Source: Micromonospora inyonensis (GTDB taxonomy: Bacteria > Actinomycetota > Actinomycetes > Mycobacteriales > Micromonosporaceae). From it: a stretch of DNA of 64,000 bases. A program made the translations under genes and the position numbers. Within the stretch, counting starts at the first letter, position 1. The number at the start of each line of letters is the position of its first letter. Shown here piece after piece: positions 8,182-14,298 of this stretch. The DNA lies in NCBI RefSeq assembly GCF_900091415.1, contig NZ_FMHU01000002.1, positions 2,418,001 to 2,482,000 of the forward strand. The letters run 5' to 3'. Below the pieces are notes generated by a model, which saw only the letters and a list, made by a program, of their open reading frames with translations, was not told the DNA's origin and ran no database searches.

Positions 8182-9138
8182 ATGTCGATCATCGAGGACA
8201 TCGGAGCCCAGGTCCGCGCCGCCTCCGACGAGCTGCCGCTGGCGTCGCTGGCCCAGGCACTGGAGAAGTTCGCCCTGGCCACCGAGCGGCTGCGCTGGGT
8301 CCGGCAGGAGTCGTCGAACCCGATGGGGGTGCCGGAGCTGTCCGCCGCCGTGGAGCACGCCGAATCCGCCGGACACGCCCTACGGGTGGCGCAGGAGCAG
8401 CTCGCCAGCTATCTGGCCGCCATCGGCCTCGGCGCGGACGGCGCCCCGGCGGCGAAGCCGCAGCCCCGCCAGCCGGCGCACGACGCGCCCCGGGACGCCG
8501 CACCGCCGGACGGGGACCCGGCCGGGGACCCGACTCCCGCCCCGGCGGTGCGCCGCTGGTGGGCGGTACGGGTGGCGGAGCTGACCGGCGGCTCGGAGGG
8601 CGAGCCAACCGGCCCGGACGAGCAGGTGACCGACGCCCGGGAGCTGCTGCGCCGGGTGGTCGGCGGGGTGAAGGCCGGCGACCGGACCCGACTGCACACC
8701 GAGTTGCGCCGGGCGCACGCCGACGTCGGTCTGGGCCTGGCCACGGTGACGCCGCCACTGCTGCGGGAGCTGGCCAGCGACCTGCTGGGACACCCGCCCA
8801 AGGCCACCGACCTGCCGAAACTGCGCAACGAGCTGGACGGTCGGGTGCGGGACCTGCTGCCCGGCCTGCCGCCGCCGGTGCTGGAGACCGTGCTGACCCG
8901 GGTCTGTCGGATGCCCCCGCCCCGGCAGCGCTCCGACGACGAGCAGCCGCACCCGGCCGACCCGGCGGTCACCGCCGGGGTGGTGACCGGCCTGCTGCTG
9001 GCCCGGCTCGGCCGGGACCTACCGCCCGAGCGGCCCGACGACGAGCGGCCACCGGCCGGATCCGACCGGGACGCGGGCGCGCCGCCGCCCCGGGCGGCCA
9101 CCGACCCCGCACGCGGCAGGCCCGGTCCACATGGCTGA
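8182..9138 (+). CDS. Hypothetical protein, FtsK-type ATPase operon
   Basis: A 318-residue protein starting MSIIEDIGAQVRAASDELPL. The first 90 residues are helical (an Ala/Leu-rich two-helix region ending EQLASYLAAIGLG) and resemble the small protein encoded just upstream. A disordered Pro/Ala-rich linker follows. A second helical domain (about residues 140-270) contains ELRRAHADVGLGLATVTPPL and LRNELDGRVRDLLPGLPP. The C-terminus is Pro/Asp-rich. There are no membrane segments. It overlaps the ATPase gene by eight bases, indicating coupled translation. I recognise no family. An adaptor or substrate role for the ATPase is inference. Confidence 0.75.
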   Translation: MSIIEDIGAQVRAASDELPLASLAQALEKFALATERLRWVRQESSNPMGVPELSAAVEHAESAGHALRVAQEQLASYLAAIGLGADGAPAAKPQPRQPAHDAPRDAAPPDGDPAGDPTPAPAVRRWWAVRVAELTGGSEGEPTGPDEQVTDARELLRRVVGGVKAGDRTRLHTELRRAHADVGLGLATVTPPLLRELASDLLGHPPKATDLPKLRNELDGRVRDLLPGLPPPVLETVLTRVCRMPPPRQRSDDEQPHPADPAVTAGVVTGLLLARLGRDLPPERPDDERPPAGSDRDAGAPPPRAATDPARGRPGPHG

Positions 9139-11815
9139 CCGTCGGGCCCAGTTGGTGGGGCGGGTCCGGGGCCTGCTCTCCGAGGCGTTGGGCTCGGCCC
9201 GGGGCCGGCTGTCCGCCGCGCGGGGCGAGCTGGACGCCGGGCAGGACCGGTTGGCACGGGTGCGGCGGGCCGCCGCGACGGTGCCGCAACGGGTCGGCAC
9301 CGAACGGGACCGCCGACTCGCCGAGATCGACTCCCGGTACACCGCACGGATCGCGGAGCTGGCCCGGCGGGCCGCCGTCGCCGCCGAGCGGGAGGCCCCG
9401 GGTGCGGCGTCGGCCGACTGGGCGCGGTGGACGCCCACCCCGGCCGGACGGGCCGAACCGCCCGGCGCGGTCCGGATCGGCACCGTCCGGATCCCCGGTG
9501 CGGGACCGGTGCCGGCGCTGGTGCCGCTGCTGGACGCCGGGCACGTCCACCTCTCCGGCGACCACAGCCCCGGCGGCGACGCGGTGGTCTCGGCGCTGCT
9601 GCTGCGCAGCATCGGCCGGGCCGAGCCGGGCACGGTCCGGCTGATCGGGTACGACCCGGAGCACCTCGGCGGCGGCCTGGCCGGATTCGCCCCGCTCGGC
9701 ACCGCCGGGCTGCTCACCTTCGTCGGCCCGGGTGGACTGGCCCGGTTGCTGGACGACCTGGTGGAGCAGATCCGCCGGATCAACGAGACCGTGCTGGCCG
9801 GGGAGCACTCCTCCGTGCGGGAACTGGCCTCGGCGACCGGGCGGCGGCCGGAGCCGTGGCGGGTGGCCGTGCTGCTCGGCGGGGACGAACTGTCCCGACA
9901 CGAGCGCGGCCAGCTCGACCGGGTGGTCCGGACCGGGGCGGCCTGCGGGGTGCACCTGGTGGTCCGGGGCATCCCGCTGCCGGACGACCCGACCGTGCAG
10001 CGGGTCCTGGTCGCCCCCGGCGACGTCCGCATCGGCGGGCCGACCGGGCTGCCGGTCCGCCTCGACCCCCCGCCCCCGGCGCCCCTGGTCACCGAGACGT
10101 GTCGACAGGTGGCCGGCACGGTCGCCGCTGGCCCGGCCCCGACCCCGTTCACCGAGCTGCTCCCGCCGCCGGAGCAGATGTGGAAGGAGGACTCGTCGAC
10201 CGCCCTGGTCGCGCCGATCGGCGAGGGGCCCAGTGGGCGCCCGGTGCTGCTGACCCTCGGCGACTATCCGCCGCACGCCCTGATCGGCGGTCCCTCCGGC
10301 ACCGGCAAGACCAACCTGATCTTCGCCTGGATCGGGGCCCTGGCCTCCCGCTACTCCCCCGCCGAGCTGGAGTTCTACCTGCTCGACTTCAAGGAGGGGG
10401 TGTCCTTCGCCCGGTTCGCGCAGGGGCGGCGGGACCCGAGCTGGCTACCCCACATGCGGCTGGTCGGGATCAACGTCAACACCGACCGGGAGTTCGGCCT
10501 GGCCCTGCTGCGCTTCCTCGCCGAGGAGCTGCGCCGCCGGGCCGACGCCGCCAAGCAGCACGAGGTCACCAAGCTCTCCGAGCTGCGGGCGGTCGACCCG
10601 ACCGGGCACTGGCCCCGGATCGTGGCGGTGGTGGACGAGTTCCAGATGCTGCTCGCCGGCCGGGACGTGGTCGCCCGGGAGGCCGCCGACCTGCTGGAGG
10701 ACCTGGCCCGGCGGGGCCGCTCGCAGGGCATCCACCTGGTGCTCGCCTCGCAGGACGTGCGCGGCATCGAGGCGCTGTGGGGCCGTCCCGCGCTGGTCGC
10801 CCAGTTCACCCTCCGGATCGCGCTGCCGAAGGCGCTGCGCATCCTCGCCGAGCGCAACGACGCCGCCCAGTCCCTGCCCCGGCACCACGCGGTGATCAAC
10901 GCGGAGTCCGGCATGGTGGAGGGCAACCAGGTGGCCCGCATCCCCTCGGCCAGCGAGTGGGAAACCTGGAGCGAGCTCCAGCACCGGCTGTGGCGGATGC
11001 GCCCGCCGGACGCCGCCCCGGCCCGCCTCTTCGACGGCGACGCGATCCCCCGGCTCGCCGACGCCCCCGACTACCGCGCCCTGACCCCGGCCCGGCAGCC
11101 GGGCGGGCCACGCGGCCCGGTCGCCCTGCTCGGGGAGATCATCGACGTGCAGGCCCGGTCGGCGGCGCTGCGGCTGCCCCGGGCACCCGGGCGGAACCTG
11201 GCGGTGCTGGGCACCCGGGTCGACGAGGCGTGCGCGGTGCTCGACGCGGCCGGGCGGTCGCTGGCCCGTCAGCACGAGCCCGGGTCGGCCCGGTTCTCCA
11301 TCGCCTGTCTCGACCCGGACGCCGACCACGCCGCCCGCACCCTCTACTCCGACCTCGCCGACGACGCCGCCTGGTACGACGAGGAGACGGTGCCGGAGCT
11401 GATGGCCGAGACGGCCGAGGCACTCACCGCGCCGGGCACCCCGGCCACCCCGCACTACCTGCTGCTCTACGCGGTCGACGCGGCGTCCGGCCGGCTGGGC
11501 ACGCGGGTAGGCCGGCGAACCGGGCTGGAGCACCTGCGGCAGATCCTGCACGACGGGCCGGAACGGCGTACCCATGTGCTGGCCTGGTGGCGGGGCGTGG
11601 CCCGGATGCGCATCGACCTGGGCGGGCCGGCGTCGCGGACCGACCAGATCGGGGCGTGGGTGGCGCTGGACGTGCAGGGCGGCGAGCTGGGGTCGTCGTT
11701 GTACCCGGGCACCGGTGGTCCGGACTGGTACCCGCGCCCGTGGCGGGGACTCTTCTTCGACCGGGCGGTGCACCGCACCGGGCAGACGATCATCCCCTAT
11801 GGACTTTCCCGATGA
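9131..11815 (+). CDS. FtsK/SpoIIIE-type ATPase with one intact and one degenerate nucleotide-binding domain
   Basis: An 894-residue protein. Residues 1-90 form a coiled coil (SARGRLSAARGELDAGQDRL) with no membrane helices. At about residues 135-330 is an FtsK-like domain whose P-loop position reads GDHSPGGDA, lacking the GKT/S core, so it is probably inactive. A canonical domain follows: Walker A GGPSGTGKTN at about 386 and Walker B RIVAVVDEFQMLL near 497-509. The segment EFYLLDFKEGVSFARF is typical of FtsK/EccC motors. A third alpha/beta region occupies the C-terminus. There is no gamma DNA-reading domain, so it is not the chromosomal FtsK. The architecture is closer to EssC/EccC secretion ATPases. 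It overlaps both neighbouring genes. Confidence 0.85.
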   Translation: MADRRAQLVGRVRGLLSEALGSARGRLSAARGELDAGQDRLARVRRAAATVPQRVGTERDRRLAEIDSRYTARIAELARRAAVAAEREAPGAASADWARWTPTPAGRAEPPGAVRIGTVRIPGAGPVPALVPLLDAGHVHLSGDHSPGGDAVVSALLLRSIGRAEPGTVRLIGYDPEHLGGGLAGFAPLGTAGLLTFVGPGGLARLLDDLVEQIRRINETVLAGEHSSVRELASATGRRPEPWRVAVLLGGDELSRHERGQLDRVVRTGAACGVHLVVRGIPLPDDPTVQRVLVAPGDVRIGGPTGLPVRLDPPPPAPLVTETCRQVAGTVAAGPAPTPFTELLPPPEQMWKEDSSTALVAPIGEGPSGRPVLLTLGDYPPHALIGGPSGTGKTNLIFAWIGALASRYSPAELEFYLLDFKEGVSFARFAQGRRDPSWLPHMRLVGINVNTDREFGLALLRFLAEELRRRADAAKQHEVTKLSELRAVDPTGHWPRIVAVVDEFQMLLAGRDVVAREAADLLEDLARRGRSQGIHLVLASQDVRGIEALWGRPALVAQFTLRIALPKALRILAERNDAAQSLPRHHAVINAESGMVEGNQVARIPSASEWETWSELQHRLWRMRPPDAAPARLFDGDAIPRLADAPDYRALTPARQPGGPRGPVALLGEIIDVQARSAALRLPRAPGRNLAVLGTRVDEACAVLDAAGRSLARQHEPGSARFSIACLDPDADHAARTLYSDLADDAAWYDEETVPELMAETAEALTAPGTPATPHYLLLYAVDAASGRLGTRVGRRTGLEHLRQILHDGPERRTHVLAWWRGVARMRIDLGGPASRTDQIGAWVALDVQGGELGSSLYPGTGGPDWYPRPWRGLFFDRAVHRTGQTIIPYGLSR

Positions 11816-12546: not shown

Positions 12547-13821
12547 TCAGGCGGCGGGGACCAGCACGGCCTCGCGGAGCAGTCGCCGGGCGAGGACGAG
12601 CCGATCGGCGTCGTCGTCCAGGCCCGGCAGGTCGCCGACGCGCCCGACGGCACCGGTGAGCAGGGCCCGTACCGCCTCGGCGCACTGCGCCGGCAACGAG
12701 ACGGTGCGGTCGAAGACGCGTAGTGCGACCCGTTCCGGGCCGTCCGGGACGAGCTGCCAGCGCAGTCCGGGCCGGACGGTGAGGGTGCTGTCGACGGTCA
12801 GCTCACGGATCGCGGCGGCCTGGGCCAGCGGGCGGATCGGCGCGGGCCGGGCGGCGGGCCAGGCCCGCTGCCGGAGCCGGCCGGCGACCGCCGTCGGGTC
12901 GGCGCGCAGCAGCCAGTCCCGCAGCGCCTCGACCGTCTCGGTCAGTTCCGGTTCGATCGCGTCGGGGTCGGCCAGGTCGACGCCGAACGGAAGGGTGGCC
13001 CGCAGGCGCGGGTCTTCGGCGGCGAGGGCGAGCAACTCCTCGACGATCGCGTACCGGGTGAGCGCCCGGACGCCGATGGTCAGGTGCAGCGAGCTGGACT
13101 CCTGCGCCTGGGCGCTGTGCAGCCAGCCCCGGGGCAGGTAGAGCGCGTCGCCGGGGGCGAGCACCACGTCGAGCGCGGCCGGCCCCTCGGCGGTGGCCGA
13201 GACCTCGTCGGCCCGGCCGCCCCACGGTTGCCGTTCCAGCGGGTCGGGCAGCACCGGCGGGTGGATCCGCCAGCGCTTGCGGCCGTCGACCTGGAGCACG
13301 AAGACGTCATGGGTGTCGTAGTGGGTGGCGAAGCCCTGGTTGCCCGGCGGGGTGAGGTAGGCGTTGACCTGCAACGGCTGACCGACGGCGAGGCCCAGGT
13401 CGCGGGCCAGGTCGATCATCGCCGGCCAGGTGCGGTGCAGCCCCTGGAGGACCAGGGTGGCGCCGTCGGCGTACTGCGCGAGGACGCGTTCGTCGAGGAC
13501 CTGGTCGCCGATCTCGGCGCCGGCCCCACCACCACCGGTCCAGCGCGCCGCCGGCACGAGCTGGCCGTCGCGGGCGATCCGGAGGAAGGGGGTACGCAGC
13601 CCGCGCCGGCTGAGCAGTTCGTCGGCGTCGGCGGGGCTGAACAGGTCGGTGAAGCCGACCGGGTTGGGCAGTTCGTCGGCGCGGGACAGCAGCGGGGTGC
13701 GTCCCCAGTGGGCGGCGGCGAACTTCGCCGGTTCGACGGCAACACACCGGGCGAGCGCGGCGACGGCGGCGGACGGCACCGCCGGGCGACCAGGGCCGCC
13801 CGGCGGGTCGATGTTCGTCAC
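12547..13821 (-). CDS. JmjC-type cupin oxygenase (ribosomal oxygenase-like, 2-oxoglutarate/Fe(II) family)
   Basis: A 424-residue protein. The JmjC/cupin core at about residues 155-260 has the Fe(II) ligands in ATHYDTHDVFVLQVDG (HxD) and a distal His in YLPRGWLHSAQAQ, followed by SLHLTIGV. This is the arrangement seen in bacterial RoxA/YcfD and human MINA53/NO66 protein hydroxylases. A C-terminal winged-helix-like region follows, also typical of that group. Those enzymes hydroxylate Arg or His in ribosomal proteins using 2-oxoglutarate and O2. Here the gene starts (GTG 13821) only six bases after the stop of a repeat protein, which makes that protein a possible dedicated substrate. There is no clear GGAGG before the GTG, so translation probably depends on coupling. 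Confidence 0.85.
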   Translation of the reverse strand: MTNIDPPGGPGRPAVPSAAVAALARCVAVEPAKFAAAHWGRTPLLSRADELPNPVGFTDLFSPADADELLSRRGLRTPFLRIARDGQLVPAARWTGGGGAGAEIGDQVLDERVLAQYADGATLVLQGLHRTWPAMIDLARDLGLAVGQPLQVNAYLTPPGNQGFATHYDTHDVFVLQVDGRKRWRIHPPVLPDPLERQPWGGRADEVSATAEGPAALDVVLAPGDALYLPRGWLHSAQAQESSSLHLTIGVRALTRYAIVEELLALAAEDPRLRATLPFGVDLADPDAIEPELTETVEALRDWLLRADPTAVAGRLRQRAWPAARPAPIRPLAQAAAIRELTVDSTLTVRPGLRWQLVPDGPERVALRVFDRTVSLPAQCAEAVRALLTGAVGRVGDLPGLDDDADRLVLARRLLREAVLVPAA

Positions 13822-13827
13822 TGCCGG

Positions 13828-14133
13828 TTACCGGGCGCCGCCATCGGCGCCACCGTCCTGCTGGCCCGGGGTCGCGCCACCGTCGGCCGGACCCTCCGCG
13901 CCGCCATCGGCACCACCGTCCTGCTGGCCCGGGGTCGCCCCACCGTCGGCCGGACCCTCCGCGCCGCCATCGGCACCACCGTCCTGCTGGCCCGGGGTCG
14001 CCCCACCGTCGGCCGGACCCTCCGCGCCGCCATCGGCACCACCGTCCTGGTGACCGGGGGTGGCACCGCCGTCGGCCGGACCCTCCAGGCCGCCGCCGCT
14101 GGTCGTGTTGATGTCGTCGTCGTTCAGTGCCAT
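13828..14133 (-). CDS. Tandem-repeat Asp/Gly-rich peptide (candidate modified-peptide precursor)
   Basis: A 101-residue protein. A 16-residue leader-like segment, MALNDDDINTTSGGGL, precedes exactly four 21-residue repeats of the form EGPADGG-ATPGQQDGG-ADGGA, then a final Arg. The first repeat has HQD where the others have QQD. It contains no Cys, Lys, Trp, Tyr or Phe, and is strongly acidic and presumably unfolded. The ATG at 14133 has a GAGGGAG site five bases upstream, so it is a real gene. A near-consensus stress promoter lies about 60 bases upstream. It is followed after six bases by the JmjC-type oxygenase. A leader plus repeated core beside a peptide-modifying enzyme resembles RiPP precursors. 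That reading is inference. Confidence 0.75.
   Translation of the reverse strand: MALNDDDINTTSGGGLEGPADGGATPGHQDGGADGGAEGPADGGATPGQQDGGADGGAEGPADGGATPGQQDGGADGGAEGPADGGATPGQQDGGADGGAR
13834..14085 (-). repeat. Four in-frame 63-bp tandem repeats
   Basis: Four head-to-tail 63-base units encode the 21-residue repeats of the Asp/Gly peptide. They are nearly identical at the DNA level, and the first-encoded unit (highest coordinates) differs by a few bases. This suggests recent unequal recombination or slippage, with copy number constrained only to whole codons. Confidence 0.9.
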
Positions 14134-14194
14134 CGGTGCTCCCTCGGAAGTCGCCGCCCCGTCCCGGGGACGGGGTCTCGTCGTGCAGCCGGTG

Positions 14195-14220
14195 GTACCC
14201 GCCGCGCGATCTTCTCTAAC
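14195..14220 (-). promoter_or_regulatory. Weak SigB/SigF-like promoter of the repeat peptide-oxygenase pair
   Basis: On the minus strand GTTA (14217-14220), a 16-base spacer and GGGTAC (14195-14200) differ from the stress consensus by one base in the -35. It lies 61 bases upstream of the repeat-peptide ATG. Confidence 0.4.
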
Positions 14221-14298
14221 CACACGGTAGGTGGCTCCTCCCGGGCGTACCGGCGGTTTCGGTCAACCGGTCGGTGGTCCGGCACGGGATGCCCGGCC

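Follow-up and report, generated by a model that had tools for sequence, protein, structure and literature searches.

The ribosomal oxygenases (ROX) NO66/RIOX1, MINA53/RIOX2 and YcfD, which belong to Pfam family PF08007, have in common their fold, the residues that bind Fe and 2-oxoglutarate (2OG) and a C-terminal winged-helix domain, and NO66 and MINA53 have been described as hydroxylating C3 of histidine (PMC9994133). JmjC proteins of the same family have also come up in connection with ribosomally synthesized and post-translationally modified peptides (RiPPs), since the RRE-Finder paper of 2025 describes some of them as having folds like the RiPP recognition element (RRE), the closest bacterial homologues (~30% identity) being found in RiPP-like contexts (PMC12710340). 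Here, we describe a locus in which the gene for such an enzyme directly follows a gene for a small, repetitive Asp/Gly peptide. It lies in a stretch of 64,000 nucleotides of the Micromonospora inyonensis genome (contig NZ_FMHU01000002.1, positions 2,418,001 to 2,482,000), hereafter the window, to which all coordinates refer unless a locus or genome is named. Our reading, which we hold to be probable, is that the two genes form a coupled unit, in which an Asp-Gly repeat ribosomal peptide is modified by a dedicated JmjC enzyme of the ribosomal-oxygenase type, most likely by β-hydroxylation of Asp. The adjacency and order of the two genes are conserved, the peptide is under purifying selection and peptide types are specific to oxygenase clades. 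A short precursor beside a dedicated putative modifying enzyme, the arrangement by which RiPP systems are recognized, is what is found here.

The peptide gene and its oxygenase

The cassette comprises the following features, all on the minus strand (ORF, open reading frame).

13828..14133, minus strand: gene for the Asp/Gly repeat peptide, 101 codons and a stop (ORF translation), putative oxygenase substrate
14086..14133, minus strand: leader-like N-terminus of 16 residues, MALNDDDINTTSGGGL (sequence reading)
13834..14085, minus strand: four 21-residue repeats, EGPADGGATPG(H/Q)QDGGADGGA
14023-14085, 13960-14022, 13897-13959 and 13834-13896, minus strand: the individual repeat units, 63 nt each
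12547..13821, minus strand: NO66-like JmjC (JmjC_2) 2OG oxygenase, 424 aa, GTG start (Pfam, structure comparison)
14139..14145, minus strand: GAGGGAG, probable ribosome-binding site for the peptide ATG (judged by eye)
14208..14221, minus strand: promoter-like stretch GGTTAGAGAAGATC 5' of the peptide gene, with 12-mers shared by 49/76 upstream regions

ORF translation bore out the original prediction, made from the sequence alone and without mention of a strand, of a 101-residue protein with a 16-residue leader-like start, four 21-residue repeats and neither Cys, Lys nor aromatic residues. The peptide consists of MALNDDDINTTSGGGL (16 residues), 4 × 21 residues and a terminal Arg; it contains one His and lacks Cys, Lys, Phe, Tyr and Trp. 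At the DNA level its gene is a tandem repeat of period 63 (4.1 copies, 94% matches, score 450). The peptide stop codon (13828-13830) and the oxygenase GTG (13819-13821) are separated by six bases, and no ribosome site resembling GAGGGAG was seen, by eye, in the window sequence 5' of that GTG, so that the predicted short gap and the absence of a separate ribosome site both stand. Further upstream, a GGGTACCACC element is found near GGTTAGAGAAGATC (14189-14221), and GGGTACCACCCG, from which the window differs by one base, occurs in 50 of 76 upstream regions.

The repeat peptide gene occupies a single site in the 6.9-Mb genome, and its nearest relatives in the named-genome collection are from Micromonospora. 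The window peptide has no match in Pfam, NCBIfam or PADLOC, nor do five of its database relatives in NCBIfam. At least two database relatives bear the label 'BatC protein', a name that the Pfam and NCBIfam scans do not support and that seems to be an artefact of annotation. A role in anti-phage defence was set aside, since neither the peptide nor the oxygenase nor one Suc_Fer-like protein (see below) was matched in PADLOC.

Two parts of the oxygenase deserve separate mention.

13057..13374, minus strand: JmjC_2 domain, residues 150-255 (Pfam PF08007, E 8.1e-29)
12550..12834, minus strand: winged-helix domain at the C-terminus (residues 330-424), RRE-like and a candidate peptide binder (AlphaFold2 model)

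The Pfam match and a structure comparison agree with the predicted JmjC oxygenase and make it NO66-like, the closest solved relatives being NO66, MINA53 and YcfD; an NCBIfam scan gave no match for the enzyme, and those JmjC enzymes of this group that have an annotation on record are named 'cupin domain-containing protein'. Alignment with NO66 predicts H167, D169 and H235 as Fe ligands and K182 as the 2OG lysine, all four of which are kept in 101/101 aligned enzymes, and the catalytic residues are, judging from this alignment, intact. The C-terminal winged helix by which the ROX fold family is recognized is also present. This domain was modelled with a mean pLDDT (predicted local distance difference test) of 92.0, and its best structural matches are the C-terminal domains of MINA53 and NO66, followed by the RREs of PqqD, TbiB1, PbtF, lasso B1 and TruD, to which the likeness is weaker.

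Conservation within Micromonosporaceae

A scan of named genomes yielded 353 oxygenase relatives, the best 80 of which (71-87% identity) were taken; judging from the record titles, all of these are Micromonosporaceae. A DGGADG/GPADGG peptide is encoded directly upstream in 80/80 of these orthologous loci; 75 of the peptides are complete, 4 are truncated where the contig begins and 1 is broken by N. In the 75, the oxygenase match begins a modal 9 nt (42/75) and no more than 207 nt after the peptide stop. The leader residues L3 and D5-D7 are invariant in 75/75 complete peptides (pattern MxLxDDD[IM]), in a collection made with a pattern that required D7, together with L/M, D/E and D/N at positions 3, 5 and 6, and that missed none of the complete peptides of the 80 loci. 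The number of DGGAD[GS] units varies from 2 to 6, and some of the peptides (L007, L015, L022 and others) have a RGADRGAERGADQGADQGA-like block inserted between repeats.

The repeats themselves carry a clear signature of selection. Their 248 distinct 63-nt units were selected by overall likeness, with no residue demanded, and the same 248 were obtained at 9, 11 and 13 identities out of 21. Mean entropies at the first, second and third codon positions are 0.143, 0.145 and 1.003 bits, so that nearly all variation is at third positions, which rules out a chance tandem repeat. Asp is constant at unit positions 5 (248/248), 14 (248/248) and 18 (247/248), where Glu or Asn never occurs, and the variable positions are 12-13 (mostly Q/H/K/R) and 20. 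Because of these codon entropies and unit-position counts, the peptide is, as far as coding patterns can indicate, a translated protein under purifying selection, in which Asp is constant and Gln and His are not.

Distribution and clade-specific peptide types

The pairing extends far beyond this family. A peptide profile built from 24 database relatives, and searched independently of the oxygenase, matched 36 of the 296 genomes in a class-level sample, a count that includes the window's genome; these matches are spread over 20 of 114 genera. A PF08007 search of the same 296 genomes matched 109 and left 187 without a JmjC_2 match, and in 36/36 peptide genomes the same strand carries a JmjC_2 match less than 1 kb further on (529-996 nt, measured from low coordinate to low coordinate). 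In a phylum-level sample, the profile matched 9 of 246 genomes, and 8 of these 9 matches adjoin a JmjC_2 match; the ninth, in genome G225, scored 23.5 bits over 21 profile positions and has no repeat in its 3-kb locus. Spread on plasmids was looked for by tblastn with one type-I oxygenase each from families f4 and f2 (type I is defined below) against 72,556 plasmid records, none of which reached 60% identity, phage records lying outside this search. In one database relative (P0053), the reading frame of a short DGGADG peptide continues into the oxygenase N-terminus, after which there is an apparent frameshift, due either to a deletion or to an assembly fusion.

To place the peptides on a phylogeny of their enzymes, 100 JmjC_2 loci were taken from the PF08007 match list, leaving out the main Micromonospora rows (G000, G012 and G026), most weak or fragmentary rows and some of middling score (e.g. 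G486, G571, G546:C20 and G647). The tree of 101 oxygenases (100 loci plus the window) was built by a quick method, with support from the Shimodaira-Hasegawa-like approximate likelihood ratio test (SH-aLRT) and no bootstrap. Type-I (DGGADGG) peptides, found at 42/100 loci and in the window, fall into one clade of 45 (SH-aLRT 96), which contains all 43 type-I rows, from 17 families, together with L194 and L199, two weak cases with other Asp-containing ORFs. The type-I label requires 2 changes on this tree, against a mean of 32.6 when labels are shuffled. The branches next to this clade, which are weakly resolved, bear nine loci with type II, a DATDGDA-like Asp-rich repeat, and several type-II peptides have an LxDDD[IM]xT-like leader as in type I.

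The remaining 47 loci were scanned for small ORFs immediately preceded by a ribosome site, and peptide types were counted by eye. In one clade, probably Nocardiopsaceae (names within family f78 point to Nocardiopsis, Streptomonospora and Haloactinospora), a EVEVEDLAEVTSRDITAGGDSDGTDSSSDFI peptide is present in 15/16 loci, the lone miss being at a contig start. A second clade has a DLVVAVEDI...SDGGGTGRSDTND peptide in 9/11 loci and a third a DLVVAVENLADVQDRYDAEHSDSDGSDG peptide in 10/10, and the last 10 loci gave no Asp peptide that fitted the small-ORF definition. Altogether, an Asp-bearing small peptide is encoded upstream at 87/100 loci (85 if L194 and L199 are excluded), and a mechanical peptide rule, set after the data had been seen, picked out 80/100 loci and 4/500 control positions. 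Five peptides of the other clades had no Pfam or NCBIfam match. Two further loci were noted. Genome G000 has a second, weaker JmjC_2 match (C2:181881-182270, L257; 56.7 bits), upstream of which no Asp peptide was found. On a Streptomyces clavuligerus plasmid, a 48-aa Asp/Pro-rich peptide (L280:2760-2906) precedes a 'cupin domain-containing protein' gene in the company of S9 peptidase and ABC transporter genes, and is perhaps a further peptide type.

Residues shared across lineages bear on which positions might be modified. A count over the last 40 residues was made for 45 of 53 intended peptides, all picked beforehand as Asp-rich: Asp and Ala, and no other residue, are present in 45/45 and Gly is in 44/45, while Gln is absent from 37/45, His from 24/45 and Pro from 18/45. 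The original prediction of a candidate system for peptide modification holds in that the pairing reaches far beyond one genome; the co-occurrence beside orthologous oxygenases that it had named as a test was found both in Micromonosporaceae and in the class sample, and the comparison of repeat number among strains that it had proposed gave 2 to 6 units with the protein repeat kept. Gln, His and Pro, which it had offered as targets beside Asp, are unlikely to be common ones, and the leader, constant in Micromonosporaceae, is not universal, as DDD[IM] is missing from Streptomyces and Aeromicrobium database peptides (e.g. P0109, P0090 and P0092).

These patterns bear on the main alternative, namely that the enzyme is an ordinary ribosomal oxygenase and the peptide a regulator, an unmodified acidic pseudo-substrate or a chaperone that tunes or stabilizes it. 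This would suit an enzyme whose closest solved relatives, NO66, MINA53 and YcfD, are described as hydroxylating ribosomal proteins (PMC6006756), and whose C-terminal domain is common to NO66 and MINA53. However, the peptide type switches with the oxygenase clade, the repeats have in some peptides been expanded to pure DGGA arrays, and so many identical sites are not obviously needed in an inhibitor. Moreover, that 187/296 class genomes have no JmjC_2 match is not suggestive of an indispensable ribosome modifier, and we consider this alternative unlikely.

A third gene and other neighbours

Outside Micromonosporaceae, the cassette often has a third member. A gene for a Suc_Fer-like [2Fe-2S] protein is found 3' of the oxygenase gene, on the same strand, at 35/42 type-I and 9/9 type-II loci (44/51), the match beginning 39-110 nt past the oxygenase stop. 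The L205 copy was identified by PF06999 (E 3.8e-21), and seven Cys/His columns, which putatively bind the [2Fe-2S] cluster, are conserved in 43-44 of 44 copies. No such gene lies directly 3' of the oxygenase at any of the 47 other-clade loci (0/47), nor at L194 or L199; at 5 of these 47 a Suc_Fer-like stretch is found 0.6-2.6 kb away on the opposite strand. Among the 80 Micromonosporaceae loci the sole match is weak and more than 6 kb from the oxygenase (L080), and PF06999 has no match in the window's genome. The system is hence one of two genes, as first proposed, in the window and in Micromonosporaceae, and has a third, Suc_Fer-like gene in most other lineages.

This third gene would also suit a different explanation, in which the peptide is an independent hydrophilic protein that acts in stress or buffers metal (Ca2+ or Fe), with only regulation or iron physiology linking it to the oxygenase and the [2Fe-2S] protein. 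Its composition in a set of 45 sequences, in some of which the start was called too far upstream, is ~18% Asp, 31% Gly and 18% Ala; this and the Fe-S protein at 44/51 loci are both in keeping with such a role, but an independent protein would not be expected to adjoin a JmjC_2 gene in 36/36 class genomes and 8/9 phylum matches, which makes this account distinctly improbable. That the short ORF merely serves as a translational leader, coupling translation to the oxygenase and yielding a product that has no role, would agree with the 6-base gap devoid of a ribosome site in the window and with the many other loci where the nearest possible (predicted) oxygenase start overlaps or is a few bases off, but is very hard to credit given the strong amino-acid-level constraint across the repeats, the presence of the peptide in 17 families of the tree and a repeat number that shifts while the protein repeat is preserved.

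Other neighbours differ from clade to clade. An aldo/keto reductase gene is found downstream of JmjC_2, across families, in 9/10 and 8/10 loci of two other clades (in the former, one of the clade's 11 loci is outside the set), and the copies identified are as follows.

L197:6387-7364: aldo/keto reductase gene
L237:6439-7368: aldo/keto reductase gene

An APH-family gene is a neighbour in 10/10 loci of another JmjC_2 clade (one copy identified). In 15/16 loci of the probable Nocardiopsaceae clade, the peptide gene is preceded on the same strand by one for a prolyl oligopeptidase (one copy identified, L234:6589-9447, minus strand), which is possibly the maturation protease for that clade's peptide. 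An FhuF-like [2Fe-2S] gene is near the oxygenase in 14/16 loci of one family (identified copy L226:4299-5264) and represents a second type of Fe-S protein near a JmjC_2 gene. In the window itself, a large ORF at 9131-11815 putatively encodes an FtsK/EssC-type ATPase-like protein (P-loop GGPSGTGKTN, by eye).

A model for peptide modification

In the model that we favour, the peptide is the substrate of the oxygenase. The winged-helix (RRE-like) domain, together with the catalytic pocket, would bind the acidic, probably disordered peptide, which the Fe(II)/2OG centre would then oxidize repeatedly. The most likely chemistry would be β-hydroxylation of Asp flanked by small residues (DGGADGG), because Asp and Ala are present in all 45 peptides compared and NO66 and MINA53 act on C3 of histidine. 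In most of the other lineages sampled, the Suc_Fer-like [2Fe-2S] protein may add a redox function, and Micromonosporaceae seem to have lost its gene. From the Asp-rich sequence and the Fe-S neighbour, we would guess that the product binds a metal, possibly iron or calcium. The window peptide offers a convenient assay, as 3 constant Asp per repeat, 12 per 101-residue chain, would be expected to give a ladder of +16 Da steps.

A broader view, which we put forward tentatively and would not yet bet on, is that of a pan-actinobacterial RiPP class in which a JmjC enzyme with a built-in RRE-like domain acts on at least five clade-specific precursor types (DGGADGG repeats, DATDGDA repeats, GGDSDGTDSSSD, SDGGGTGRSDTND and SDSDGSDG), each being oxidized at Asp to give poly-β-hydroxyaspartate, metal-binding or signalling products. 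By extension, a common origin may link NO66 and MINA53 to enzymes that modify peptides and in which the winged-helix domain is an RRE. If the peptide is indeed the substrate, many bacterial JmjC enzymes that are now orphans would gain a defined one, RiPP biology would gain a new class-defining enzyme, and the idea that the winged-helix domain of ribosomal oxygenases is a peptide-recognition element would become directly testable.

Comparison with known systems

Several known systems share one or other aspect of this cassette. FIH is a JmjC protein hydroxylase that β-hydroxylates Asn and Asp in repeats; it is only distantly similar to the oxygenase (Foldseek E ~2e-8), and an FIH structure with an Asp-substrate peptide is among the structure matches. 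Bufferins are ribosomal peptide metallophores linked to multinuclear non-haem iron-dependent oxidative (MNIO) enzymes, and are likewise small peptides with a metal role, but they differ in the enzyme family, and the core of the window peptide has no Cys. NO66, MINA53 and YcfD are described as having ribosomal proteins as substrates (PMC6006756), whereas clade-specific small peptide genes lie directly upstream of the enzymes considered here. PbsQ, and BpmG of biphenomycin, are hydroxylases of JmjC/cupin fold that act, or are predicted to act, on a ribosomal precursor, as described in PMC12257519, but they do so alongside an MNIO and a B12-dependent radical S-adenosylmethionine (B12-rSAM) enzyme, whereas the sole visible modifying enzyme of the window cassette is the JmjC protein, on an Asp-Gly repeat. 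The RRE-JmjC fusions in section 6 of PMC12710340 come close to the enzymes reported here; that section names neither a precursor, a repeat peptide nor a Suc_Fer partner, and no description of the peptide/JmjC pairing was found in the open-licence papers searched. JmjC/cupin hydroxylases in RiPP clusters are thus already known, and it is the proposed modification of Asp-repeat peptides by a JmjC enzyme of the ribosomal-oxygenase type that makes the system described here a candidate RiPP class.
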